Of a DNA stretch of 64,000 nt, positions 23,000 to 35,836 are shown in pieces. A program made the translations under genes and the position numbers. The notes under the pieces are model-generated. The model worked only from the letters and a program-made list of their open reading frames with translations, searched no databases and was not told the DNA's origin. Numbering within the stretch: the first letter of the stretch is position 1; each line of letters begins with the position of its first letter. Source of the DNA: Streptomyces sp. I6 (GTDB lineage: Bacteria > Actinomycetota > Actinomycetes > Streptomycetales > Streptomycetaceae); contig RHDP01000001.1 in assembly GCA_003725745.1 (NCBI GenBank), positions 1,767,501 through 1,831,500 of the forward strand. The letters are read 5' to 3'.

Positions 23000-24370
23000 G
23001 TGACGGCGACACACGCACGGCCGCGCGCAGGAGCGAGGGCGAGAGCGGGAGTCGTGCGTGACGTGGCCGCACTGGTGCTGATGCCGTTGCCGCTGGTGGT
23101 CGCGGCACTCCCGGCCGCGTTCGCCGGAGGCGGGACGCGGCGGTGGTTCGGCGGCCGCGGCGAGAGCCAGCGGGCCGACGCGCAGGCCGCGAAGGACGCC
23201 GCCGCGGCGGCGTTCTACGAACTGGACACCGCCCAGCGCGACCTCCGCATCTCCATCGAGACCATCGCGGCCGTGGACAACTCGCCCGGCGCCCGGCGCG
23301 CGGTCGAGGAGTTCACCGCGCTGGGACACCGGATCGACGAGGTCAGCCACACGTACATCACCGCCGTCGACGCGCACGACCTCGACCGGGACGACCTGGA
23401 CCCCTCGGTGGCGGTGCGTGCGCGCAGGGACCTGGCCGGGGCGAAGGACGCGCTGGTCCGGGTCAGGGGCGAGCTGGACCGGTTCGCGCAGGGCCTCGGG
23501 CCACTGCTGGAGAAGGCTGAGACCCAGCTGGCCCGCCTCGCCCCCGCCGTCGAGCGGGCCCGGCAGGCACTGCTCGCGGCGAGCAACGCCCTCGACGCGG
23601 TGCGCGCCTCGGGTATGCGCGCCGACGACCTGGCGGCCCGGCTCGCCGCCCTCGCCCCCGAGCTGACCAGGCTCAACGAGGGTGCCGGCCGGCACGGCGT
23701 GTCCGAGACACTGCAGCGCGCCGACCGGGTGGTACGCGAGGCCGAGACGATACGGGCCGAGGCCGGGCGGCTTCCGGAACGGGCGGCCGAGATCGACAAA
23801 CGCCTGGTGTCGCTGCGTACCCGCGCCCAAGCGCTCACCACGCGCACGGAGGGCGTCGAGCCCGTCCTCAGCGAGCTGCGCCGCCGCTTCACCGCCGCCT
23901 GCTGGCAGGATCTGCAGCCTGTTCCCGCCCGGGCCGGTGAGGACGTACGCCGCGCCGAGGAGAAGCTCAAGGAAGCCGCCAAGGCACGCGACGAGCAGCG
24001 CTGGCCCGATGCCACGGCCCTCCTCACCACCGTGCGGGCCCTGCTGAACAGCATCGACGAGGCCGTCTCGGCCGCCGGTGACCGGCTGCGGCGGCTCGAC
24101 GCCGTCGCCAAGGACCCTGAGCAGGAGATCCAGCGCACCCGGTTCGCCATCCGCGACGCCCAGCGCCTCGCCATGGCGGGCCGCAACACCCCGGATCCGC
24201 GGCACGCCCGCCCCCTGGACGACTCCGTCGCCCGGCTCGATCGGGCTGTCGCCGGTCTCGAGGGACGCCACCCCGACTACTGGCACTTCCTGACCGAGCT
24301 GGAAGCGGTTCGGCAGACCGTGGCCCGCGTCGTGGGCCTCATCCGCAGCGAGCGCGGCCCGGCGGCGTGA
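23000..24370 (+). CDS. Membrane-anchored coiled-coil protein, unknown function
   Basis: A 456-residue protein with one N-terminal membrane helix (ALVLMPLPLVVAALPAAFAG, about 23-42) followed by about 390 residues that are almost entirely helical and coiled-coil: AKDAAAAAFYELDTAQRDLR, QRADRVVREAETIRAEAGRL, and DVRRAEEKLKEAAKARDEQR. No enzymatic motif is present. I recognise it as a conserved Streptomyces hypothetical; its layout resembles structural or septum-type spacer proteins, but that is only an analogy. GTG 23000 follows GAGAGGG. Confidence 0.8.
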   Translation: MTATHARPRAGARARAGVVRDVAALVLMPLPLVVAALPAAFAGGGTRRWFGGRGESQRADAQAAKDAAAAAFYELDTAQRDLRISIETIAAVDNSPGARRAVEEFTALGHRIDEVSHTYITAVDAHDLDRDDLDPSVAVRARRDLAGAKDALVRVRGELDRFAQGLGPLLEKAETQLARLAPAVERARQALLAASNALDAVRASGMRADDLAARLAALAPELTRLNEGAGRHGVSETLQRADRVVREAETIRAEAGRLPERAAEIDKRLVSLRTRAQALTTRTEGVEPVLSELRRRFTAACWQDLQPVPARAGEDVRRAEEKLKEAAKARDEQRWPDATALLTTVRALLNSIDEAVSAAGDRLRRLDAVAKDPEQEIQRTRFAIRDAQRLAMAGRNTPDPRHARPLDDSVARLDRAVAGLEGRHPDYWHFLTELEAVRQTVARVVGLIRSERGPAA

Positions 24371-24780: not shown

Positions 24781-25395
24781 ATGGCATCCACCAACGCGTC
24801 GCAGGACACGAGGCACCGCGGAGGCGGGCACGTCGCACTGAACGAGCACCTGCCCGTGGACCACAAGCTCAACCAGGTCTACCGCTATGGCGCGGGGCTC
24901 ATGGGTCTGATCCTGCTGGCGTTCGGGGTCCTCGGGCTGACGCACAACCTGGGCTTCTTCGACACGGGCAACGACACCGTCGCGGGCCTCAACACCAACG
25001 GCGCGCTGAGCGTGCTGTCCATCTGCGTCGGGCTGCTGCTGTTCGTCGGCATGGTCATCGGTGGCAACTTCGCCTCCACGCTGAACATGGTGCTCGGCAT
25101 CCTCTTCATCTTCAGCGGCTTCGTGAACCTGGGCCTGCTGGACACCGACGCCAACTTCCTCAACTTCCGCATCCAGAACGTCCTCTTCAGCTTCGTCGTG
25201 GGAATCATGCTGATGTGGTTCGGCATGTACGGACGGGTGAGCAGCACGCTCCCCCACGACAACCCCTACTGGAAGGCCCGCCACCCGGAGGAGGCTGCGA
25301 GGGAGGAACGGGCGCGGGCGGAGCGGATTCAGGCGGGACGGATGCTCCCGCGCGAGGGTTCGGAGTCCGGTCGCCAGGACCGACGGCCCGGCTAA
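24781..25395 (+). CDS. DUF4383 family membrane protein
   Basis: A 204-residue protein with four membrane helices and the DUF4383 hallmarks HKLNQVYRYGAGLMGLIL, NNLF-like LTHNLGFFDTG, NMVLGILFIFSGFVNLGLL and the C-terminal half helix FSFVVGIMLMWFGMYG. A charged cytosolic tail (EEAAREERARAERIQAGRM) follows. Function is unknown; relatives are often stress or sporulation associated. ATG 24781 follows GGGAGG. The FmdB gene follows 9 bases downstream, so the two are probably cotranscribed. Confidence 0.9.
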   Translation: MASTNASQDTRHRGGGHVALNEHLPVDHKLNQVYRYGAGLMGLILLAFGVLGLTHNLGFFDTGNDTVAGLNTNGALSVLSICVGLLLFVGMVIGGNFASTLNMVLGILFIFSGFVNLGLLDTDANFLNFRIQNVLFSFVVGIMLMWFGMYGRVSSTLPHDNPYWKARHPEEAAREERARAERIQAGRMLPREGSESGRQDRRPG

Positions 25396-25850: not shown

Positions 25851-26816
25851 CTACGGCGCGGCCGGCGCCTCCACCCCACCAGACGCCGGGAGCGTGGCTG
25901 CGGCAACCGGCGTGGCGTCGGCGGACGCGGTACCGCCCTGCGCACCGGAAGCCGTACCCGTCCCCCCCTCCCCGTCCACTCCCTGTGCCACTTGCGTCAC
26001 TCCCTGTCCCGCTCCGGTCACCGCCGCCGCGAACCGGCGCAGGATCTCCTCGCCCGCCGCGATCCCCCGCTCCTGGAGGGCGGTCACCTGCCGGGGCGCC
26101 CAGCCGGTGTCGGCGAGTTCGCCGTGACCAGGGCGCCAGGCGTGGTCGGCGGCCAGCAGCAGATCGGCGTCGAGGAGTGAGTCGCCCGCCGCGAGCACGC
26201 GCTCGGCTCCGGTGCGCCGCACGAGTTCACGAACGGCCGCGCTCTTGGTGAGCGGCTTCGGCACGGCGTAGACCTTGCGCCCCTGCAGGGAGACCGTCCA
26301 GCCCTTCGTGTCCGCCCAGGCGGAGAGTTCCCCGATCCAGTCGTCCGGGAGGAGCGAGCGCTCCACGACGAGATAGGCGAAGAGGTCCTCGGCGACCCGC
26401 TCCTTGAGCAGCCAGGCCGGGTCAGCCGCGTCGAGCAGATGGGCGCGGACCTCGGCGAGGGAGGCGCACTCGCCGGCGAGTCTGGCGGCCACCGTGCGCT
26501 GCCAGGCGGGGTCGGACTCGCCGTCGACCAGCAGATGGCCGCCGTTGGCGCAGATCGCGTACCGGGGGGCGGGGCCGGGCAGCCGGATCCTGGCGTACTG
26601 CTCGCGGGTACGGGTCGTCGCCGGTACGAAGACCGCGTCGCCGGCGAGTTCGCCGAGCAGTGCGGCGGCGGCCTCCGTCATGTACGACAGCGGCTTGCTC
26701 TCGTACACCTCGACGCACAGCAACCGGGGCGCCATGGCGTCGGGCACGGTCAGCTGCAGTGCGGCCGCGGAGTAGATGAGCGTCCGGTCGAGGTCGCTGG
26801 TGATCAAGGAGGTCAC
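25851..26816 (-). CDS. HAD family hydrolase of the Ter-linked biosynthetic operon
   Basis: A 321-residue HAD phosphatase. Motif I is LITSDLDRTLIYS (nucleophile Asp8, Asp10), a Cof-type cap follows, and the late motifs are PKPLTKSAAVRELVRR (catalytic Lys) and AERVLAAGDSLLDADLLLAA (Asp pair). The last 50 residues are low-complexity. The GTG at 26816 overlaps the stop of the upstream gene (GTGA), which implies translational coupling. In Ter-linked modules a HAD phosphatase is proposed to remove phosphate from the nucleotide-like product made by the phosphoribosyltransferases; that role is inferred from context. Confidence 0.88.
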   Translation of the reverse strand: MTSLITSDLDRTLIYSAAALQLTVPDAMAPRLLCVEVYESKPLSYMTEAAAALLGELAGDAVFVPATTRTREQYARIRLPGPAPRYAICANGGHLLVDGESDPAWQRTVAARLAGECASLAEVRAHLLDAADPAWLLKERVAEDLFAYLVVERSLLPDDWIGELSAWADTKGWTVSLQGRKVYAVPKPLTKSAAVRELVRRTGAERVLAAGDSLLDADLLLAADHAWRPGHGELADTGWAPRQVTALQERGIAAGEEILRRFAAAVTGAGQGVTQVAQGVDGEGGTGTASGAQGGTASADATPVAAATLPASGGVEAPAAP

Positions 26817-29710
26817 TGCGTCGCCACCGCCTTTCCGTCGGCGCCGGTCGCTCCGCGGGTGAAACGGGGGTGGATCAGGCCGACGCAGCTGTAGGGCAGG
26901 TCGTCGGCCTCCTCGACGGGTACGCCCCGCTGCTCGGCGAGCAGGCGTACGTGGTCCAGGTCGGCGCCTGTGCCACGCCTGGCCAGGATCCTCCAGGGGA
27001 CGCGGCGCAGCAGCACCCGGGTGGTCTCGCCGACGCCGGGCTTGACGAGGTTGACGTCGTGGATGCCGTAGTCCTCGCTGATCCGCTCCACCGCCGCCCA
27101 GCCGGCCCAGGTGGGGGCGCGGTCCGCGGCGAGCAGGTTCTTCACTTCGGCGTCGACGGCCCCGGCCACCTCGTCGAAGCAGGCCTCGACGGTGTCGAGG
27201 AAGCGTCCGGACACGTCGGCGGCGGACAGTTCGCGGTAGTACTTCGCGCCGTGGAAGTCGTGCGGCCCGACCAGGTCGGTGCGCAGGACGGTGCGCGAGA
27301 CCAGCCCCGACACCGTGGAGTTGAGGCAGGCGGAGGGGATGAGGAAGTCCTCGCGGGTGCCGTACGTCCGGACGCAGCCTCCGGGGTCGGCGAGCACCGC
27401 GATCTCCGGGACGAAGCCGTCGAACCCGCCGAGTGCGGCGGTGAGTTCGCGGGTGATGGCTCCCTTGCCGGTCCAGCCGTCGACGAACACGACGTCGGCC
27501 GGGTCGTGGTGGGCCGCGAGCCAGCGCAGCGCGTTGGCGTCGATGCCGCGGCCGCGCACGATGGAGACGGCGTAGTGGGGCAGGTCCAGGCCGTGGCGGC
27601 GTCGGGCCCAGCGGCGCATCAGCACGCCGACGGGTGTACCGGCGCGGGCCAGCGAGACGAGGACGGGGCGGCGCTCGTGGGGCGGGGTGCCGGGACGGTG
27701 CCGCTGCGGGTGCTCGGCGAGGACGATGTCGGTGACGGCTCCCACGGCGCGGGCGATCCGGGCTGCGGAGGTCTCCAGGGCGGCATGGAACAGTGCCTGG
27801 TACGCGTCGCTGGGCTGGTACTCGACGGGCAGCGATTCGGCGTAGTGCGCGCCGCCGCTCTGTATCGCCTCCTCGCGCTCCTCCGTGGGCGCCTCGAGTT
27901 CGACGTCCGAGAGGTCCTGGAGCAGCCAGCCGACCTCGTCGGGCGCGTAGGAGGAGAAATCGGGTCCGCGGAGCGGCTCGGGCAGCATGGGTTCCGTTTC
28001 GGGAGCGGGTACGCAGTCGGCAGGTGCGCTGCCGGCGGGTACGTAGTCGGCAGGTGCGCTGCCGGCGGGCAGGTAGCTGGGGACGACGGCGAGCACGACG
28101 TGCGGTACGTGCGCGGCGAGCTGTGCGAGCAGTCCGTCCGGGGCGTGCAGGGCCGCCGTGTCGGCGGCCGAGTCCACGACGGCGACGACCGCGTCGAAGC
28201 CTCCGCCGGCGACGTTGTAGGCGTACCGCTCGCCGGGCCCGTCGGCCGGTTCGTCGTGGGCGGGGAAGACCAGCCGGGTGCGTATGGCGTAGCCGGGGTC
28301 GTCGACGGCGAGGACGGGGGACCTCGTGGTCGTCGAGTAGCGCACCTCGCGCGCGCCGCCGCTGCGCTCCAGTTCGAGCGCCAGCCGCAGCGGCGCGTAC
28401 ATCAGCTCCTCGAAGCCGAGTACGAGGACACGCGGGGAGCCGTTCGTTTCCGGCGCCGCGGCTGCCCCGGCCGTCTCCGGCCGGGCTTCGCCGGACTTCG
28501 CCGGGCGGCTGCCCGCCAGGGCTTCGGCGACGCGGTGTGCCATGGAGGGCAGGGCCGCCTCCAGCTCGGCGCGGTGCGCGGGGGTGAAGCCGTGCCGGCC
28601 TCCGTCGGGGACGCCCGTGGGCCAGCCCAGGTCCACCCGTACGACGTGCGGGGCGTTCGGGGCATGCGGCGCGCGCCCGGCGGGGCTGTACGCGCCGTCC
28701 GAACCGGGCCCGCCTTCCCCTACCGCACCCACCGCACCCACGGCTCCCGTCGGGCCATGCGCCGAGCCGGGCCCGCCCTCCCCCTCCGCACCCTCCGCAC
28801 CCACCGCGCCCTCCGCCCGGTGCGGGGTGTGCCGCGTGCCGGAAGGGCAGCCGGAAGGGCGGTACGTCGCTGCGCGGGAGGTCCCGGCGGCCGCGGCCGG
28901 CCCGGTACCAGGTACGGCGGCCGCTCCGGTTCGTCTCGCGGCCGGCCCGGCGGGCACCGGACCGGCCGCGGGTGCGGGGGCCGTCCCTTCGGTCTCGTGG
29001 GCCGCGACCAGGGCCCGGCCCTTCTCGAGGACGTCCTCCGGGAGGCTGACAGTGCCGCCGGCGTGGGCCACCAGGTCGATGCGGGCGCCGATCTCCCGGG
29101 CGAAGCCGTCCAGCCGGCCCAGGTCCTCGGCCGAGCGCATGTCGACGAGGGCGACGACGACATACCGGCCGCGCGGATGGCGGGTGTGGAGGTCGCGGAT
29201 GGTGTTCAGCACGGTGTTGCCGGTGGAGAACTCGTCGTCCACGAGGACCAGCGGCCCCTCTCCGGCCAGCAGCTCCGGGTCCTCGGGCAGCAGCAGATGC
29301 GAGGTGGCGTGCGAGTGGGACTCCTCGAAGCCGCCGGCCCGGCCGACACCGTCGACGGGGCGGCGCGTGGAGTGGAGGTACGGCGCGACGGCCAGGCCGT
29401 CGGCGACCGAGTGGCCGAGGCCGGTCGCCGTCTCCGCGTAGCCGAGGACGACGGCCCGCGCGGCCTCGTCGCGACCGAGGATGTCGCGGACGCGCAGGCC
29501 GAGCCGGTACCCGTGGCCGTACACGACGGACGGCTTCTGCGGCACGTGCTTGCCGAGCACGTGCGACACCAGCAGGTGCGCGCGCTTCGGGTTGCGCCGC
29601 AGGGCCAGGCCGAGCAGCTCCTTCAGCCCGTCGTCGCCGACGAGCTCCACGCCCAGTCGCTGGGAGACCCAGCTGCCCGACCACACCACTTCTTCGTCTT
29701 CCTCCCTCAT
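26813..29710 (-). CDS. Double phosphoribosyltransferase: PRTase_2-TRSP fused to StiP/PRTase_1-PELOTA
   Basis: A 965-residue fusion. Residues about 1-240 form a type I phosphoribosyltransferase with PRPP loop VLVDDEFSTGNTVLN (about 155-169). A long Ala/Gly/Pro linker (240-350) precedes a TRSP domain (about 355-545) with its namesake TTTRSP near 460. After a second linker containing the repeat VPAGSAPAD, residues about 580-860 form a second transferase (StiP/PRTase_1 family) with loop VVFVDGWTGKGAI (about 740-752). The last 75 residues, from GVGETTRVLLRRVPW to DLPYSCVGLIHPRF, match the PELOTA RNA-binding unit. These domains occur in Ter-linked operons and are predicted to build a nucleoside-like compound. 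Start ATG overlaps the upstream stop (ATGA). Confidence 0.88.
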   Translation of the reverse strand: MREEDEEVVWSGSWVSQRLGVELVGDDGLKELLGLALRRNPKRAHLLVSHVLGKHVPQKPSVVYGHGYRLGLRVRDILGRDEAARAVVLGYAETATGLGHSVADGLAVAPYLHSTRRPVDGVGRAGGFEESHSHATSHLLLPEDPELLAGEGPLVLVDDEFSTGNTVLNTIRDLHTRHPRGRYVVVALVDMRSAEDLGRLDGFAREIGARIDLVAHAGGTVSLPEDVLEKGRALVAAHETEGTAPAPAAGPVPAGPAARRTGAAAVPGTGPAAAAGTSRAATYRPSGCPSGTRHTPHRAEGAVGAEGAEGEGGPGSAHGPTGAVGAVGAVGEGGPGSDGAYSPAGRAPHAPNAPHVVRVDLGWPTGVPDGGRHGFTPAHRAELEAALPSMAHRVAEALAGSRPAKSGEARPETAGAAAAPETNGSPRVLVLGFEELMYAPLRLALELERSGGAREVRYSTTTRSPVLAVDDPGYAIRTRLVFPAHDEPADGPGERYAYNVAGGGFDAVVAVVDSAADTAALHAPDGLLAQLAAHVPHVVLAVVPSYLPAGSAPADYVPAGSAPADCVPAPETEPMLPEPLRGPDFSSYAPDEVGWLLQDLSDVELEAPTEEREEAIQSGGAHYAESLPVEYQPSDAYQALFHAALETSAARIARAVGAVTDIVLAEHPQRHRPGTPPHERRPVLVSLARAGTPVGVLMRRWARRRHGLDLPHYAVSIVRGRGIDANALRWLAAHHDPADVVFVDGWTGKGAITRELTAALGGFDGFVPEIAVLADPGGCVRTYGTREDFLIPSACLNSTVSGLVSRTVLRTDLVGPHDFHGAKYYRELSAADVSGRFLDTVEACFDEVAGAVDAEVKNLLAADRAPTWAGWAAVERISEDYGIHDVNLVKPGVGETTRVLLRRVPWRILARRGTGADLDHVRLLAEQRGVPVEEADDLPYSCVGLIHPRFTRGATGADGKAVATQ
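28007..28074 (-). repeat. 30-bp in-frame repeat in the linker between the two transferases
   Basis: Two copies and a partial copy of a 30-bp unit (plus strand GTACGTAGTCGGCAGGTGCG and onward) encode the decapeptide VPAGSAPADY/C. The repeat lies exactly at the junction between the TRSP half and the StiP half of the fused protein, where two separate genes would have their stop and start. Confidence 0.75.
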
Positions 29711-30873
29711 CAGCCTGCCAGACCCGCGGTCAGCAGCTCCACGAAGCCGACGTCCTCGCGTGCGACGCCGAAGGCCTCGGCGCGCCGGAGCGTGCGTTCC
29801 GCCCAGGCGCGGTGCGGCTTCACCTCGTTCATCTTGTTCGTGTAGGCCGAACGCATCACTCCGCCGCCTCCCCGCTCCGGGCGGAGGATGTCCTGCGCGT
29901 CGCTGAACTCCTCGTGGCTGACCACCGACAGAGCGTGGACGGGCAGCACATGCGAGGGGTGGATGCAGGTCTTGCCGAGGAGGCCGTTGGCGCGGTCCAG
30001 CTCGATCTCGCGCAGCAGGCCGTCGAGGTCGTGCTCGATCAGTGCCGTGCGCAGCTTCTCGGCCTGCACCTCCATGAAGGGGCTGCGGCGCAGCTGCGGT
30101 TTGAAGATGCGCTCCTGGAGGCGGAAGTACTCCCAGACGGGGCCGGTGATGGTGAAGCCGGTGCCGTCGGAGCGGCCCAGGACGTTGACCACGTCCGCGA
30201 TGACGCCGGCGACGATCTGGACGTCGTAGGCCGTCATGTCGGGGGAGCGGCGGAGCCCGTAGGCGGAGCAGAAGTCGGTGACCCCGAGGCGCAGGGCGAG
30301 GATCCGGTCGCGGTGGCGGCCGACGGAGCGGGCGATACCGGTCAGGGTCTCGTGCCGGGTCTCCAGGTGGAGGAGCTCGGGCGATTCGAGCACCGGCATC
30401 ACGTAGAGCATGCGATCGGTCATGGACTCGGCGGCGGAGACGGCCTCCATGAAGGGGCCGCAGCGCCCCTCGGTGAATTTGGGGAGTACGAAACCGGACA
30501 ACAGCCGGCTCGCCGGACCGAGACGCCGCACGAGGTCCTCGATCTGGCCGGGTTCACGCACCCGGATGAACAGCAGCGGGAGCTCGGCGCCGGGTGCACC
30601 GAGGTCGGCGAATTGGCGGACGAGGTTTTCCTCGGCTGCGCAGACTTCGGCGTCGTCGATGGAGTCCTCCAGGCAGAGCACCATGGAGACCACTCCGCGC
30701 GCGGCCTGCTTGAGGACGTCGTCGGCGAGGTGGGGCCGGGTCGCGGGGCTGTAGAGCGTGGCGCCGAGCGCCACGGAGAGCAGGCCCGCGGGAGAGCCGG
30801 CGTCGAACTCCGCCGGCTCCTGATGGAACAGTTCCTTCCGGGCAATGGCCGGGATATGACCGAAATGCCGCAT
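29710..30873 (-). CDS. HpcH/HpaI aldolase / citrate lyase beta-like protein (CitE-like)
   Basis: A 387-residue TIM-barrel enzyme of the HpcH/HpaI-CitE superfamily. Visible features: VVSMVLCLEDSIDDAEV with acidic metal ligands, LLFIRVREPGQIEDL with the substrate-phosphate Arg, LYVMPVLESPELLHL with the catalytic/metal Glu, LALRLGVTDFCSAYGLRRSP and NGLLGKTCIHPSHVLPVHAL. It is longer than true CitE and matches the variant found in Ter-linked operons, where it is predicted to catalyse a C-C bond step on the nucleoside-like intermediate. ATG 30873 has GGGGGA five bases before it. It is the first gene of the coupled operon. Confidence 0.88.
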   Translation of the reverse strand: MRHFGHIPAIARKELFHQEPAEFDAGSPAGLLSVALGATLYSPATRPHLADDVLKQAARGVVSMVLCLEDSIDDAEVCAAEENLVRQFADLGAPGAELPLLFIRVREPGQIEDLVRRLGPASRLLSGFVLPKFTEGRCGPFMEAVSAAESMTDRMLYVMPVLESPELLHLETRHETLTGIARSVGRHRDRILALRLGVTDFCSAYGLRRSPDMTAYDVQIVAGVIADVVNVLGRSDGTGFTITGPVWEYFRLQERIFKPQLRRSPFMEVQAEKLRTALIEHDLDGLLREIELDRANGLLGKTCIHPSHVLPVHALSVVSHEEFSDAQDILRPERGGGGVMRSAYTNKMNEVKPHRAWAERTLRRAEAFGVAREDVGFVELLTAGLAG

Positions 30874-31341
30874 ATGAATCCCCCGTACTGCCTGGGCGGC
30901 ACTGTGGTGTGGGTGGCCGGTAATAGTACGTAGGGACAGATGTCGCGAGTTCCCCGGCCGTATGAACTCCAGGTTTCGCACGCTTCGGTCCCCCGACTCA
31001 GCCTGCCCTCCGCCCCCGCGGGACATGCCCGGCCGGTCCCCCTCCGCGCGTGCGGCGGGTCCACGCGCTTGAGCGGCGCGTGAACGGGTGCCTGGACGTC
31101 CCCTCCGCGCGTGCGGCGGGTCCACACCGCAGTCCGTGAGGCAGGCCCGTGCGGGCGGGCCCACGCCGCAGTCCACGCGCCCGGCCTCGCGACAGGCCCG
31201 ACCGGGGACCGTGGGGCGGGTGGGGGCCGCCGTCCAGCGGTGCCGTACGGGCCGGAGCCGAGCCGGAGCCGGGCCGGGCACGGTGCGCGGCGCCCGGAAG
31301 AGGCGGCCCCGCGTTGTCCGCACGGGCCGTGGGAGGGCAGG
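30874..31341. other. Divergent spacer between the aldolase operon and a TerD gene
   Basis: About 468 bases with no gene. The minus-strand promoter of the aldolase operon is expected near 30900-30960, which is AT-richer (TACTATTACC on the minus strand). The rest has short direct repeats such as CCCTCCGCGCGTGCGGCGGG at 31044 and 31098. Confidence 0.5.
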
Positions 31342-32226
31342 ATGACGGGCATGACGCACGCGATGCTGAAGGGCTCCAACGTTCCGCTCGGAGCGACCTC
31401 GATCCGGGCCGTGCTGCGCTGGACTCCCGGCGCGGGAGTCCCGGACGTGGACGCCTCGGCGCTGCTTCTGGGCACTGACGGCCGTGTGCGCGCCGACGAG
31501 GACTTCGTCTTCTACAACCAGCCCCGGCACCCCTCCGGCTTCGTGCGGCTGCTGCCCAAGAAACGCACCGCCGAGGGGCTCACCGACACGGTGCAGGCGG
31601 ATGTCGGCTCCCTCGACGCCTCCGTGGACCAGGTGGTGCTCGCGGCGTCGTCCGACGGGGGCACGTTCTCCGGGGTCCCCGATCTGCGGATCGTGCTGTA
31701 CGACGCAGCGGTGCCGGACGGCGAGCCGCTGGCAGTGTTCGACGTGCGGGCGGAGACGGGCGAGGAGACCGCGGTCATCTGCGGTGAGCTGTACCGGCGC
31801 GGCGACGGCTGGAAGTTCCGCGCGGTGGGGCAGGGCTATCCCACCGGGCTGATCGGTCTGGCCACGGCCTTCGGTATCTCGGTGGACGACAGCGAGCCGT
31901 CCCCCGGCACGTCCGCACCCGAACCCGCGGCACCGGCACCGGCACCGGCACCGGCACCGGCGCAGACACAGGCACCACACACACCGGCACACACACCGGC
32001 GCAGGCGCAGACACAGGTGCAGACTCCGTCGCGGCCCGGGCCCCCGTCGGTGGACCAGACGCCGCGGCGGCCCGATCCGCACGCCGAGCCGTCGTACGGG
32101 TACCCCCAGCCGGCCTCTCCGGCGGCGCAGCCCGCATACGGCTACCCGCAGCCCGCAGCCGCGGCCGGTCCCGCGCCCGACCCCGACTTCCGGCTGCCGC
32201 CGATGGGGCCGCAGTTCATCTCGTAG
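31342..32226 (+). CDS. TerD family protein with Pro/Ala/Gln-rich tail
   Basis: A 294-residue protein. Residues about 5-190 are a TerD domain: [56 protein letters not shown], and the conserved [20 protein letters not shown]. TerD domains bind Ca2+ through acidic loops and are part of the tellurite/stress (Ter) systems. The last 100 residues are low-complexity, with [14 protein letters not shown] and two copies of YGYPQPA, and would be disordered. ATG 31342 follows GGGAGGG; an ATG at 31351 is possible. It runs opposite to the enzyme operon. Confidence 0.9.
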
Positions 32227-32230
32227 CGAT

Positions 32231-32410
32231 GTGTGCCCGCGGGGCCCGCGGCGGCGCGGCCGGCGCCCCGCGGAGGACGGGGAGACCGGCCGGGGCTCAG
32301 GTCTTGGTCTTGCAGCCGGCGTGTGTGCCCGCGGGGCCCGCGGCGGCGCGGCCGGCGCCCCGCGGAGGGCGGGGAGACCGGCCGGGGCTCAGGTCTTGGT
32401 CTTGTAGCCG
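32231..32410. repeat. 92-bp tandem duplication spanning the stop codon of the TerA-like gene
   Basis: Copies 32231-32318 and 32323-32410 agree except for two bases. The right copy contains the stop and last codons of the TerA-like gene (ending ..YKTKT); the left copy preserves the same end as CKTKT plus stop. The unit also includes the GC-rich hairpin just past the gene, so the convergent spacer with the TerD gene now has two copies of it. Confidence 0.9.
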
Positions 32411-33126
32411 CGGCCCCACTGAAGGCCCCAGCCGTACAGCCGGTCCAGCTCCGCCTGGAAGCCGTACACGAACTTCACCTCGCGGCGCACGATCAGCTCG
32501 CCCTTGACGTTCTCGACCATGAACACGGCGCACGAGCGTGCCTGCGGGGCGCGCTCGTCGAGTTCGATCTCCACCCGCGGCCCGTTGCTGGGGTACAGCG
32601 TCACCTTCGCGTGCGTGCGGTCGAACGCGGGCGTCCGGTCGTAGATGTAGACGAAGAACAGCAGACGCCTGATCTCGTCCCGGTGGTCGAGGTTGACGAA
32701 GAGCGTCTCGCCGGACGGTGCGCCGAAGCGGTCGTCCCCGCTGAGGCGGACGTACGGCACCTCGTTCAGGCTGCCGAAGAAGCCGCCCAGCGGCTGCACC
32801 ACGCCCTTGCTGCCGTCGGCCATCTCGTAGAGGCAGCCGAGGTCGAGGTCCACGTTGACGACGCCCTGGGTGTGCGCCTGGACCACCTCGGGGCGGAAGA
32901 GCTTGGACGGATTGCGCAGCAGGCGCCCGCTCTGGCGCGACCGCCCCTCGATGTCGGAGGTCCGCATCCGCCAGGAGAGGTTGACCCGGAGGTTGCCCGT
33001 GGCGGCGCTCTGCTTGGAGAGGGAGACCTGGGGGCGGCGCCTGGTCAGCTCGATGGAGTTGGCCGAGGAGCTGCCCGCGTCGAACTGCGCTGCCCTGCCG
33101 CGCCGCAAACCGTCCCAGAAGGCCAT
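32389..33126 (-). CDS. TerA-like tellurium-resistance family protein
   Basis: A 245-residue protein of the TerD/TerA-related superfamily. Recognisable parts: MAFWDGLRRGRAAQFDAGSS, LTRRRPQVSLSKQ, LRVNLSWRMRTSD, VNVDLDLGCLYEMADGSKGV, then RLLFFVYIYDRTPAFDRTHA and FMVENVKGELIVRREVKFVY. It has no N-terminal helical TerA part, so it is the short actinobacterial form. Cytosolic, probably Ca2+-binding and partner of the TerC-like membrane protein encoded 146 bases upstream. ATG 33126 is the conserved start. Confidence 0.85.
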   Translation of the reverse strand: MAFWDGLRRGRAAQFDAGSSSANSIELTRRRPQVSLSKQSAATGNLRVNLSWRMRTSDIEGRSRQSGRLLRNPSKLFRPEVVQAHTQGVVNVDLDLGCLYEMADGSKGVVQPLGGFFGSLNEVPYVRLSGDDRFGAPSGETLFVNLDHRDEIRRLLFFVYIYDRTPAFDRTHAKVTLYPSNGPRVEIELDERAPQARSCAVFMVENVKGELIVRREVKFVYGFQAELDRLYGWGLQWGRGYKTKT

Positions 33127-33272
33127 GTCCCCACCCCTGACTGCCGCCGGCTCCCTCCCGGAGCCGGTCCGGATACACCGCGCGGCCCCGTGCCCCGGCA
33201 GCGCGCGGGGCGGCCCGGAGACCCTGTGCCTCCCGGCCGCCCCGCTGAGAGCGTTCCTCAAACCCGGCGGTG

Positions 33273-34406
33273 TCACACTTCGTTTGCCGCGAGTGCCACT
33301 TCCTTCTCCTCGTGCGCCCTCAGGCGCTGGTTGCGCCGCACGGAGGACCAGAAGGACCAGGCGATCAGGGCCACGCCGATGAGGCCGGTGACGACCTCGG
33401 GGACCTCGTACTGGATGGTGACCAGCAGGATCACGGCCAGTGCGCCGATCGCGTAGTGGGCGCCGTGCTCCAGGTATACGTAGTCGTCGAGGGTGCCCTG
33501 GCGGACCAGGTAGACCGTGAGGGACCGGACGTACATGGCTCCGATGCCGAGGCCGAGCGCGATGACCACGGGGTCGTTGCTGACCGCGAAGGCGCCGATG
33601 ACGCCGTCGAAGGAGAAGGACGCGTCCAGCACCTCGAGGTACATGAACATGAAGAACGCGGCCTTGCCGACGAGCTTGGTGGCCGAGACCGGCTTCCCGG
33701 TCCTGCGGGCCTCCTCCTCGGCCTCCTGCTCGCGTTCCTCGTCCTCTTCGAGCTTCTCCTCGAAGAAGCCGGAGAGGCCGCCCACGACCATGTACGTGAC
33801 CACGCCGGCGACACCGGCGAGCAGTACCGTGGACGACTTGTCGACGTACACGCCGCCGTACTGGTGGGCGTTGACGGCGAAGGTGGTCGCGGTGATCAGC
33901 AGGATGATCAGCGCGACGCAGGCGGCCAGCATGTCGATCTTGCCCAGCTTGGCCAGGGGCCGCTCCAGCCAGGCGAGCCACCGGATGTCCCGGTCCTCGA
34001 AGATGAAGTCGAGGAAGATCATGAGCAGGAACATGCCGCCGAACGCCGCGATGGCGGGGTGGGCGTCGGTGACGAGTTCCTCGTAGCGGGCGTGGTCGTT
34101 CAGGGCGAGGTCGACGGCCTCGATGGGGCCGAGCTGCGCGGTGATCGAGACGATCACGACGGGGAACACCAGCCGCATGCCGAAGACGGCGATCAGGATG
34201 CCGATGGTGAGGAAGATCTTCTGCCAGAACTCGCTCATCTTCTTCAGCACGCCGGCGTTGACCACGGCGTTGTCGAAGGAGAGCGAGACCTCCAGGATGG
34301 TCAGGATCGCGACGAGCCCGAAGGCCGTCCATCCCCCGTAGAACACCGCAGCGACCAGGCCGAGCGCAGTGACTGCGAACGACCAGCCGAAGGTTTTCAG
34401 TACCAC
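33273..34406 (-). CDS. DUF475 / TerC-like integral membrane protein
   Basis: A 377-residue protein with about nine membrane helices. It carries the TerC/YkoY-type acidic helix motifs ILEVSLSFDNAVVNAGVL and LEVLDASFSFDGVIGAFAVS, two symmetry-related copies with buried acidic and Asn residues that form a metal pathway. A large charged cytosolic loop (EEKLEEDEEREQEAEEEARR) separates the halves. TerC-family proteins are linked to Mn/metal efflux and to metalation of exported proteins, and complex with TerD/TerA-type proteins. Start is GTG 34406. It lies between TerA-like and TerD genes on the same strand. Confidence 0.92.
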   Translation of the reverse strand: MVLKTFGWSFAVTALGLVAAVFYGGWTAFGLVAILTILEVSLSFDNAVVNAGVLKKMSEFWQKIFLTIGILIAVFGMRLVFPVVIVSITAQLGPIEAVDLALNDHARYEELVTDAHPAIAAFGGMFLLMIFLDFIFEDRDIRWLAWLERPLAKLGKIDMLAACVALIILLITATTFAVNAHQYGGVYVDKSSTVLLAGVAGVVTYMVVGGLSGFFEEKLEEDEEREQEAEEEARRTGKPVSATKLVGKAAFFMFMYLEVLDASFSFDGVIGAFAVSNDPVVIALGLGIGAMYVRSLTVYLVRQGTLDDYVYLEHGAHYAIGALAVILLVTIQYEVPEVVTGLIGVALIAWSFWSSVRRNQRLRAHEEKEVALAANEV

Positions 34407-34594
34407 TGGCTACCCAATCGTTGTGTACGGAGCTCCCCCGCAGAGAGCGGGATTCCCCCCGCGCCGCACGCGGCGTCGCGCTGCATTGTCCCCCGGGGGC
34501 CGGTGCCGGGCCCCGGCGGGGTCCCAGGGCCCGCTGGCTCCGGCTCCGGCTCTTTCGGGCCCGGCTCAGGCCGGAACAGTGCGTGAGCAGTGCT

Positions 34595-35170
34595 TCAGGA
34601 GACGTTGACCCCGAAGTCTAGAGCGATGCCGCGGAGCCCCGACGCGTACCCCTGGCCCACCGCCCGGAACTTCCATTCACCCCCGTAGCGGTACAGCTCA
34701 CCGAAGATCATCGCCGTCTCGGTGGAGGCGTCCTCGCTCAGGTCGTACCGGGCCAGCTCCTCGCCGTCGGCCTGGTTCACCACGCGGATGAACGCGTTGG
34801 CGACCTGGCCGAAGGTCTGGCCGCGGCTGTCCGCTTCGTGGATCGAGACCGGGAAGACGATCTTGTCGCAGTGCGGTGGGACCCGGGTGAGGTCGACGAT
34901 CAGGGACTCGTCGTCCCCGTCCCCCTCACCCGTGAGGTTGTCGCCGGTGTGCTCCACCGAGCCCTCCGGGCTCGTCAGGTTGTTGTAGAAGACGAAGAAC
35001 TCGTCCCCCAGTACCCGCCCCGACTGGCAGAGCAGTGCGCTGGCGTCGAGGTCGAAGGGTGCTCCGGTGGTGGAGCGCGCGTCCCAGCCGAGCCCGACGA
35101 GGACCTGGGTGAGGTTGGGTGCGGCCTTGGAGAGGGAGACGTTGCCTCCCTTGGCGAGCGTGACGCCCAT
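34595..35170 (-). CDS. TerD family protein (191 aa)
   Basis: A complete TerD protein: [72 protein letters not shown] and [20 protein letters not shown]. The DLDAS and EGDGDDE acidic loops are the Ca2+ sites. Length equals the family norm. ATG 35170 follows GGGGAGGA. It is about 72% similar by eye to the next TerD gene and looks like a tandem paralogue; a terminator between them shows separate transcripts. Confidence 0.95.
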
Positions 35171-35207
35171 GTCGGTGTCCTCCCCTGAACGTACGGAACT
35201 GCAGGCG

Positions 35208-35242
35208 CGTCCGGCGCCGCACGGTGTGTGCGGCGCCGGACG
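35208..35242 (-). terminator. Hairpin between the two tandem TerD genes
   Basis: Perfect 15-bp arms CGTCCGGCGCCGCAC (35208-35222) and complement (35228-35242) with a 5-base loop, 18 bases past the stop of the upstream TerD gene. Confidence 0.85.
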
Positions 35243-35260
35243 CTTCAGGTGCTGTCGGGC

Positions 35261-35836
35261 TCAGACGTTGACGCCGAAGTCCTGCGCGATGCCGCGCAGG
35301 CCCGAGGCGTAGCCCTGGCCGATGGCACGGAACTTCCACTCCGCGCCGTTGCGGTACAGCTCGCCGAAGACCATGGCGGTCTCGGTGGAGGCGTCCTCGC
35401 TCAGGTCGTACCGGGCGAGTTCCTCGCCGTTGGCCTGGTTCACCACGCGGATGAACGCGTTGCGGACCTGGCCGAAGGACTGCTGGCGGGTCTCGGCGTC
35501 GTAGATCGACACCGGGAAGACGATCTTCTGGACGTCGGCGGGGACCCCGGCCAGATTGACCTTGATCTGCTCGTCGTCGCCCTCGCCCTCGCCGGTGAGG
35601 TTGTCGCCTGTGTGTTCCACCGAGCCGTCGGGGCTCTTCAGGTTGTTGAAGAACACGAAGTTGCCGTCGGCTGCAACCTTGCCCTCGTCGTTCGTCAGCA
35701 GGGCGCTGGCGTCGAGGTCGAAGTCGGTGCCGGTGGTGGTGCGGACGTCCCAGCCCAGACCGACGGTGACCGCGGTCAGGTTGGGGGCGGCCTTGGTCAG
35801 CGAGACGTTGCCGCCCTTGCTGAGGCTGACTCCCAC
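35261..35836 (-). CDS. TerD family protein (191 aa)
   Basis: A second complete TerD protein with the same signatures ([73 protein letters not shown]). I chose GTG 35836 because GGGAGGA lies just upstream and all relatives start M-G-V-S-L; an ATG 12 bases earlier has no ribosome site. Cytosolic, Ca2+-binding, part of the stress-responsive Ter complex. Its upstream spacer to 35969 also contains its promoter. Confidence 0.95.

Follow-up and report, generated by a model that had tools for sequence, protein, structure and literature searches.

An actinobacterial variant of the Ter biosynthetic module in Streptomyces sp. I6

Beside several ter genes, the genome of Streptomyces sp. I6 (assembly of 7.05 Mb, 87% complete) carries a compact operon of enzymes, which raises the question of whether these genes form a system of their own or belong to a known one, and what they would make. 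The first-pass annotation of the window (the whole 64,000-nucleotide stretch of DNA analysed here) ranked them as the best candidate for an undescribed system. That is too strong, because the module class has already been described: the block is an actinobacterial form of the known Ter biosynthetic module, and a distinct variant of it. Its best explanation, at a probability of about 0.6, is a Ter module with PRPP-based synthesis of a ribosyl or nucleoside-like compound and with TerD/TerC partners at the membrane.

Gene content of the block

The enzyme operon consists of three tightly packed genes on the minus strand (30873-25851), with the following features:

29710..30873, minus strand: C-C bond lyase of 387 aa, a CitE-like TIM barrel, heading the operon (PF15617 C-C_Bond_Lyase, 401 bits)
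26813..29710, minus strand: fusion protein PRTase_2-TRSP-StiP-PELOTA_1, 965 aa (Pfam)
29054..29617, minus strand: PRTase_2 domain of the fusion, residues 32-219 (Pfam, 219 bits), with the PRPP-loop-like motif LVLVDDEFSTGNT at residue 154
28121..28606, minus strand: TRSP domain of the fusion, residues 369-530 (Pfam, 125 bits)
27188..27955, minus strand: StiP domain of the fusion (PF11202), residues 586-841 (344 bits), with SLARAGTPVG at residue 686 and VFVDGWTGKGAI at residue 741
26870..27109, minus strand: PELOTA_1 / L7Ae-like domain of the fusion, residues 868-947 (Pfam, 119 bits), with KPGVGETTR at residue 890
25851..26816, minus strand: HAD-superfamily phosphatase, last gene of the operon (motifs DLDRTLIY, PATTR, KPLTKSA and AGDSLLDAD; PDB match)

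Pfam bears out the CitE-like enzyme and the PRTase_2, TRSP, StiP and PELOTA domains of the protein that the first-pass annotation had read as a double phosphoribosyltransferase (PRTase), and motifs plus a PDB relative bear out the HAD enzyme. The four families whose absence would have spoken against that reading, PRTase_2, TRSP, StiP and PELOTA_1, are matched at 219, 125, 344 and 119 bits; PF03328, also expected, is absent among the matches, the lyase falling into PF15617 instead. Against the PDB, the lyase gives a partial match to an acyl-CoA lyase beta chain (E 1.1e-6). Of the two gene overlaps claimed, GTGA at the PRTase/HAD junction is correct, whereas the supposed ATGA at the CitE/PRTase junction is in fact TGATG, a 1-base overlap. 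Among the PADLOC defence families, none matches the module enzymes, the TerA-like protein or the DUF475 protein.

The ter genes adjoining the operon are:

31342..32226, plus strand: TerD protein with a Pro/Ala-rich tail (TerD, 147 bits)
32389..33126, minus strand: TerA-like protein (alignment of 9 members; weak TerD-domain match, E 0.014)
33273..34406, minus strand: DUF475/TerC-family membrane protein (PF04332, 462 bits; PF03741, 72 bits)
34595..35170, minus strand: TerD (PF02342, 274 bits)
35261..35836, minus strand: TerD (PF02342, 287 bits)

All five had been named at the outset and all are present, four by Pfam and the TerA-like protein by alignment, five of whose nine members match the TerD domain at E<=1 (best 3e-21). 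Since TerD is a multi-copy gene in Streptomyces sp. I6, with 11 copies in the genome, proximity to TerD is by itself weak evidence.

Conservation and relation to known Ter modules

Within the bacterial family, 55 of 61 genomes have a PRTase_2 match above the family cut-off; across the phylum, 14 of 296 do. Stretches of 20 kb, chosen for holding PRTase_2, were compared for 35 of the 54 further family copies, as well as for five copies from outside the family. StiP, PELOTA and HAD matches occur in all 35 family loci and CitE in 34; in the exception, L057, the CitE gene is gone from between the PRTase gene and the plus-strand TerD gene while the rest of the block is retained. The TerA-like and DUF475 genes are found in 34 of the 35, the remaining locus (L081) being cut by a contig end. 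Three of the five loci from outside the family have the enzymes together with TerD and DUF475. The other two, L062 and L063, show no tblastn match to the PRTase_2 of the window; called genes of L062 nonetheless match PRTase_2 and StiP beside TerD genes, and in L063 TerD genes alone are matched.

The linkage extends to the class. StiP is above cut-off in 43 of 197 genomes, a count that leaves out one match below the cut-off, and 42 of these 43 also have DUF475. In 39 of the 43, DUF475 lies on the StiP contig at a distance of 4.1-17.6 kb; of the four left over, three are drafts with DUF475 on a different contig, and no DUF475 turned up in the fourth. Of the 154 genomes that lack StiP, 13 match DUF475 strongly; a Fisher test on this co-occurrence ignores relatedness. 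A scan of genome contigs yields at least 591 StiP relatives, and the best 80 of these have the same gene set as far as each stretch extends: 24 are from Streptomyces and 56 from Nocardia, Rhodococcus, Rhodococcoides, Williamsia, Gordonia, Mycolicibacterium, Tsukamurella and Nakamurella. The co-occurrence of these genes, mostly in one order across the loci examined, is not due to chance, and the linkage of the three enzyme genes with TerD genes, on which the first-pass annotation had made its proposal depend, is conserved.

Genes may also stay together as an old syntenic block whose members share no pathway, and AhpC, DUF3052 and AceE, which lie in the block of the window's family in 33, 34 and 33 of 35 loci, look like housekeeping neighbours. 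Such a block is nevertheless the least probable of the alternatives considered here: StiP and DUF475 are on one contig within 17.6 kb in six families of the class (f1, f3, f7, f85, f94 and f96) whose gene orders differ, and a further gene described below, up2, accompanies them in four of the six.

The modules of family f85 seemed Ter-free when judged from 20-kb loci, a view that was dropped: DUF475 and TerD are on the same contig, with DUF475 11-18 kb off in 12 genomes and 4 kb off in one. In seven of nine f85 loci (L170-L177 and L188), a large gene upstream of CitE (1187-1507 aa as called) occupies the position that TerD/DUF475 has in other families. Two such genes were scanned, with no Pfam family match for that of L174 and no NCBIfam family match for those of L174 and L170. 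Both f85 loci scanned for neighbours (L170 and L174) have HSP70-family genes, and L170 has a GH26-like gene; AMP-binding and phosphorylase genes stand on the other side of the f85 module. Many modules of Nocardia and some of Rhodococcus have AIM24-family genes close by (L088, L094-L101 and others).

The Ter biosynthetic module was reportedly proposed by Anantharaman in 2012, from Aravind's group, and the module class was thereby described. The block has PRTase_2 with TRSP, StiP with PELOTA_1, the PF15617 lyase, the HAD enzyme and the linkage to TerD/TerC that mark this class; the ATP-grasp family PF15632, another of its marks, is not found convincingly in the same genome. A Ter ATP-grasp enzyme is often listed for the module and is not always present, so its absence does not exclude membership. 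Passages on the Ter system in PMC7824862, PMC5512222 and PMC8115787 likewise describe the class, and there the product of the enzymes is still a prediction; those in the first two propose that the PRTases and the HAD enzyme make a nucleoside- or nucleotide-type signal.

As in the block described here, the Ter modules of enterobacterial and Pseudomonas plasmids (L084, L086) have PRTase_2, HAD, StiP and CitE-like genes beside TerD/TerA/TerC-type genes, in the order ATP-grasp, PRTase_2, HAD, StiP, CitE. The window differs from them in having no linked ATP-grasp gene, a fused PRTase_2 and StiP, a TerC of the DUF475 type, CitE first and HAD last, and up2 nearby. More generally, the actinobacterial form has another order than the plasmid form, usually no linked ATP-grasp gene, and often the fusion. 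Among the loci compared, the StiP domain of the window is nearest to those of Streptomyces, at no more than 84% identity. Ter loci of Mycolicibacterium, Nocardia and Rhodococcus share TerD, DUF475, CitE, PRTase_2-TRSP, StiP-PELOTA, HAD and up2 with the window; there up2 precedes CitE and is co-directional with it, PRTase and StiP are separate in some loci and fused in others, and AIM24 is often near.

The first-pass annotation was right that no ATP-grasp gene accompanies the others in the block. Elsewhere in the genome, the best PF15632 match reaches 28.8 bits in a 762-aa frame, or 29.5 with its neighbours against a cut-off of 29.1; 12 of 14 control genomes also exceed the cut-off in this search, which is therefore unspecific. 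The genome matches the ATP-grasp profile A8 at E 1e-4. Going by these profile scores, the 87%-complete assembly appears to hold no convincing Ter ATP-grasp; the organism may do without the step or have it supplied from elsewhere, or the gene may have escaped the incomplete assembly. Nine of 16 genomes of the genus have a strong but unlinked ATP-grasp relative (E below 1e-50), and in four of the nine (L209-L211 and L214) it is PF15632-like and stands in a different neighbourhood (Pfam was run on L209). By tblastn with two plasmid ATP-grasps, a linked gene occurs in 2 of 141 actinobacterial loci, L133 and L180, in the latter together with TelA. In one further genome (G405), an ATP-grasp gene stands beside TerD and DUF475 (L213), while StiP is on a different contig. 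Two side observations concern the surroundings of such genes: in L133, from Nakamurella, the ATP-grasp match is on the opposite strand between up2 and CitE, and in L212:288-3156 a Ter-type ATP-grasp gene adjoins a GT20 (OtsA-like) gene.

By gene order, the S. coelicolor TerD gene SCO2368 presumably marks the orthologous locus. Daigle 2015 is said to have tied this gene to calcium homeostasis. A passage of PMC6767563 gives SCO2368 as a sigma-E target whose protein level is higher under vancomycin. Because of these two links, to sigma-E and to calcium homeostasis, a role in envelope or ion stress would fit by analogy. A sigma-E site like that of SCO2368 was sought in the window and rejected: neither of two tested patterns lies in the block, the closer one is absent from the whole window, and the other is at chance level (6 found against 3.9 expected), all its occurrences being outside the block. 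The presence of PRTase_2 in 55 of 61 genomes of the family, with both PRTase-type parts in one protein in this Streptomyces, offers a tractable handle on the system.

A candidate extra component

The gene block had been described correctly as far as it was listed, small details aside, but the wider conserved block was overlooked, and with it a gene that lies past the HAD end of the region then covered:

23063..24370, plus strand: up2, an all-helical protein without a named family, start codon uncertain (AF2 model, synteny, co-occurrence with StiP)

Among the best 80 of the at least 591 StiP relatives, 51 of the 56 Nocardia/Rhodococcus-type loci have up2 ahead of CitE and in the same direction. 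The gap to CitE is shorter than 60 bases in 43 of the 51, seven of these 43 being 4-base overlaps. In the other five, L102, L131, L135, L141 and the cut locus L144, up2 was not found upstream of CitE. In the family of the window it stands at the opposite end, past the HAD gene, and was seen in 29 of the 35 fetched loci.

In the survey of 197 genomes, 26 of the 43 with StiP have a strong up2 match, against none of the 154 others (with up to nine candidates scored per genome, and two weak matches, E 8e-5 and 3.5e-4, left out). All 26 are on the StiP contig, 2.8-11.0 kb from StiP; they fall in four families and so are not fully independent. The other 17 StiP genomes are without a strong match. 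This distribution makes up2 a likely new component of the module.

The AF2 model of up2 consists entirely of helices (mean pLDDT 89.3). Foldseek gives no significant PDB match, the best natural chain being EzrA (4uxv, E 0.17), and no Pfam family scores above its cut-off. Membership of the EzrA family was rejected, the score being 22.4 bits against a Pfam cut-off of 39.6; in an alignment of 12 up2 proteins, 11 match EzrA at E<=1 (best 4.4e-7). Kinship with TelA was also rejected, hhalign against a TelA alignment giving a probability of 0.2. NCBIfam returns coiled-coil matches alone, far below cut-off, PADLOC a single 17-bit MukB-like coiled-coil match, and a Mycolicibacterium copy is annotated as hypothetical. 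As a new candidate component, up2 is open to deletion and localisation. Between up2 and the HAD gene (24781-25395), the window encodes a small membrane-type protein, which we take to be DUF4383 and which is near up2 in a number of family loci too.

Predicted chemistry and competing readings

In the preferred reading, the CitE-like lyase would make or trim an acceptor, the two PRTase-type sites would use PRPP to put phosphoribosyl groups on it, and the HAD enzyme would then take off phosphate; the product is most likely ribosyl or nucleoside-like. The TerD, TerA-like and DUF475/TerC proteins would be metal binders that work at the membrane, either responding to the product or acting jointly with it, and up2 would be a helical structural partner coupling the enzymes to the membrane part.

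PRTase_2 and StiP share one open frame in 80 of 137 loci and are separate in 57 (a non-random sample of the loci where both parts could be placed; L153 was left out as a likely frameshift). On a FastTree tree of StiP, there are at least 13 switches between the two states. Such repeated joining and splitting suggests that PRTase_2 and StiP work together, and the occurrence of PRTase_2-TRSP and StiP-PELOTA fused in some relatives and separate in others is expected of partners in one complex. The AF2 model of the 965-aa fusion (mean pLDDT 77.7) matches adenine (APRT) and other phosphoribosyltransferases in Foldseek (best E 1.9e-6); the matched region of the model is not stated, so that at least one PRTase fold is supported, not two. 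The most conserved stretches of StiP, SLxRAGxPxG and FVDGWTGKG, look like loops of PRTases or other PRPP enzymes. From the model and these motifs, we infer that the StiP domain is a second PRTase-like site. A profile comparison of StiP with ordinary PRTases failed, as did its PRTase_2 positive control; StiP and PRTase_2 profiles align in register, but at E 0.032 (probability 1.6).

The Pfam title of PF11202 and RefSeq names instead present StiP as a cysteine protease, which would turn the module from synthesis to regulatory proteolysis. The alignment of 17 StiP sequences does contain two invariant His columns, and its best Cys column is occupied by Cys in 14 of them, while two of the three exceptions carry a Cys two columns away. 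No Cys column is invariant, however, and the phage copy L085 has no Cys at the best one. With motifs that resemble PRPP-enzyme loops, small-molecule enzymes as operon partners, and a passage of PMC5512222 that speaks of two PRTases in the Ter system, a proteolytic role is very unlikely.

The PELOTA/L7Ae-like domain suggests another possibility, in which it would bind structured RNA, the PRTase sites would ribosylate that RNA and the HAD enzyme would remove the phosphate. In its favour are the PELOTA_1 score of 119 bits, the match of the StiP-PELOTA profile to L7Ae chains of kink-turn proteins across the KPG..E.TR region (best E 0.0011), and the invariance of E and R of this motif in 17 aligned sequences. 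L7Ae-like folds need not bind RNA, though; the published proposals favour a free metabolite, and no RNA partner was found, a single tRNA being all that Rfam reports for the window at gathering scores. An RNA substrate is accordingly rated unlikely, nearly on a par with the sugar phosphate discussed next.

The HAD protein of the window has no Pfam or NCBIfam match at E<=0.001, and S6PP (E 0.012) is all that Pfam gives at E<=1; it is therefore identified by the HAD motifs and by its PDB match. The latter is to the chains 6CJ0 and 6D3V, deposited as trehalose phosphatase (phmmer E 1.5e-12, 50.6 bits), a solved relative that the first-pass annotation missed although its call of a phosphatase was right. 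The protein is 26% identical to the HAD enzyme of the classic Ter module, and that of L084 matches the PDB trehalose phosphatase at E 2.8e-48. In the plasmid module of L086, the HAD gene lies between those of PRTase_2 and StiP, and its protein aligns with 6D3V over 251 residues at E 2e-158, with 21 differences counted by eye, or about 92% identity. Because of this near-identity, the Ter HAD family probably has a solved and assayed member under another name.

These matches allow a reading in which a glycoside phosphate is made or turned over by the module: the HAD enzyme would act on a disaccharide phosphate resembling trehalose-6-phosphate, and a sugar derivative would be formed instead of a nucleoside. 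Besides the deposited names and the near-identical gene of L086, it can draw on the phosphatase activity reported below for the P. aeruginosa enzyme and on the OtsA-like gene next to the Ter-type ATP-grasp of L212. Yet OtsA-like genes occur in none of 147 other loci, HAD enzymes are often promiscuous, the window HAD is a distant relative at 50.6 bits, and two PRTase-type domains speak for PRPP chemistry. A sugar product is thus improbable, if the least so among the alternatives. A direct link to trehalose synthase was sought in the same 147 loci and discarded, with no instance.

An elaboration of the ribosyl reading would account for the trehalose-6-phosphate phosphatase label in another way: two ribosyl phosphates might be added in turn to one acceptor, giving a disaccharide-like ribosyl-ribose product, with up2 as a spectrin/EzrA-like scaffold tying the enzymes to the DUF475/TerD membrane complex. 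This combination is speculative and rates as quite unlikely, somewhere between the RNA and protease readings.

From the name and the plasmid match, we infer that 6D3V and 6CJ0 are the P. aeruginosa extra-chromosomal trehalose-6-phosphate phosphatase (TPP), whose phosphatase activity a passage of PMC6838324, citing Cross 2018 for the enzyme, reports from a TPP panel. The passage names trehalose-6-phosphate as substrate of the nematode enzymes and none for the bacterial panel; it treats the P. aeruginosa protein as a trehalose enzyme and does not mention Ter. By title and abstract, a literature search for trehalose-6-phosphate phosphatase together with tellurite returned no paper on this link. 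The P. aeruginosa enzyme (PDB 6D3V, 6D3W, 6CJ0) is related to the HAD protein of the window, yet distant; tying the Ter HAD enzymes to a phosphatase that is probably both solved and assayed would give a direct experimental entry to the module.
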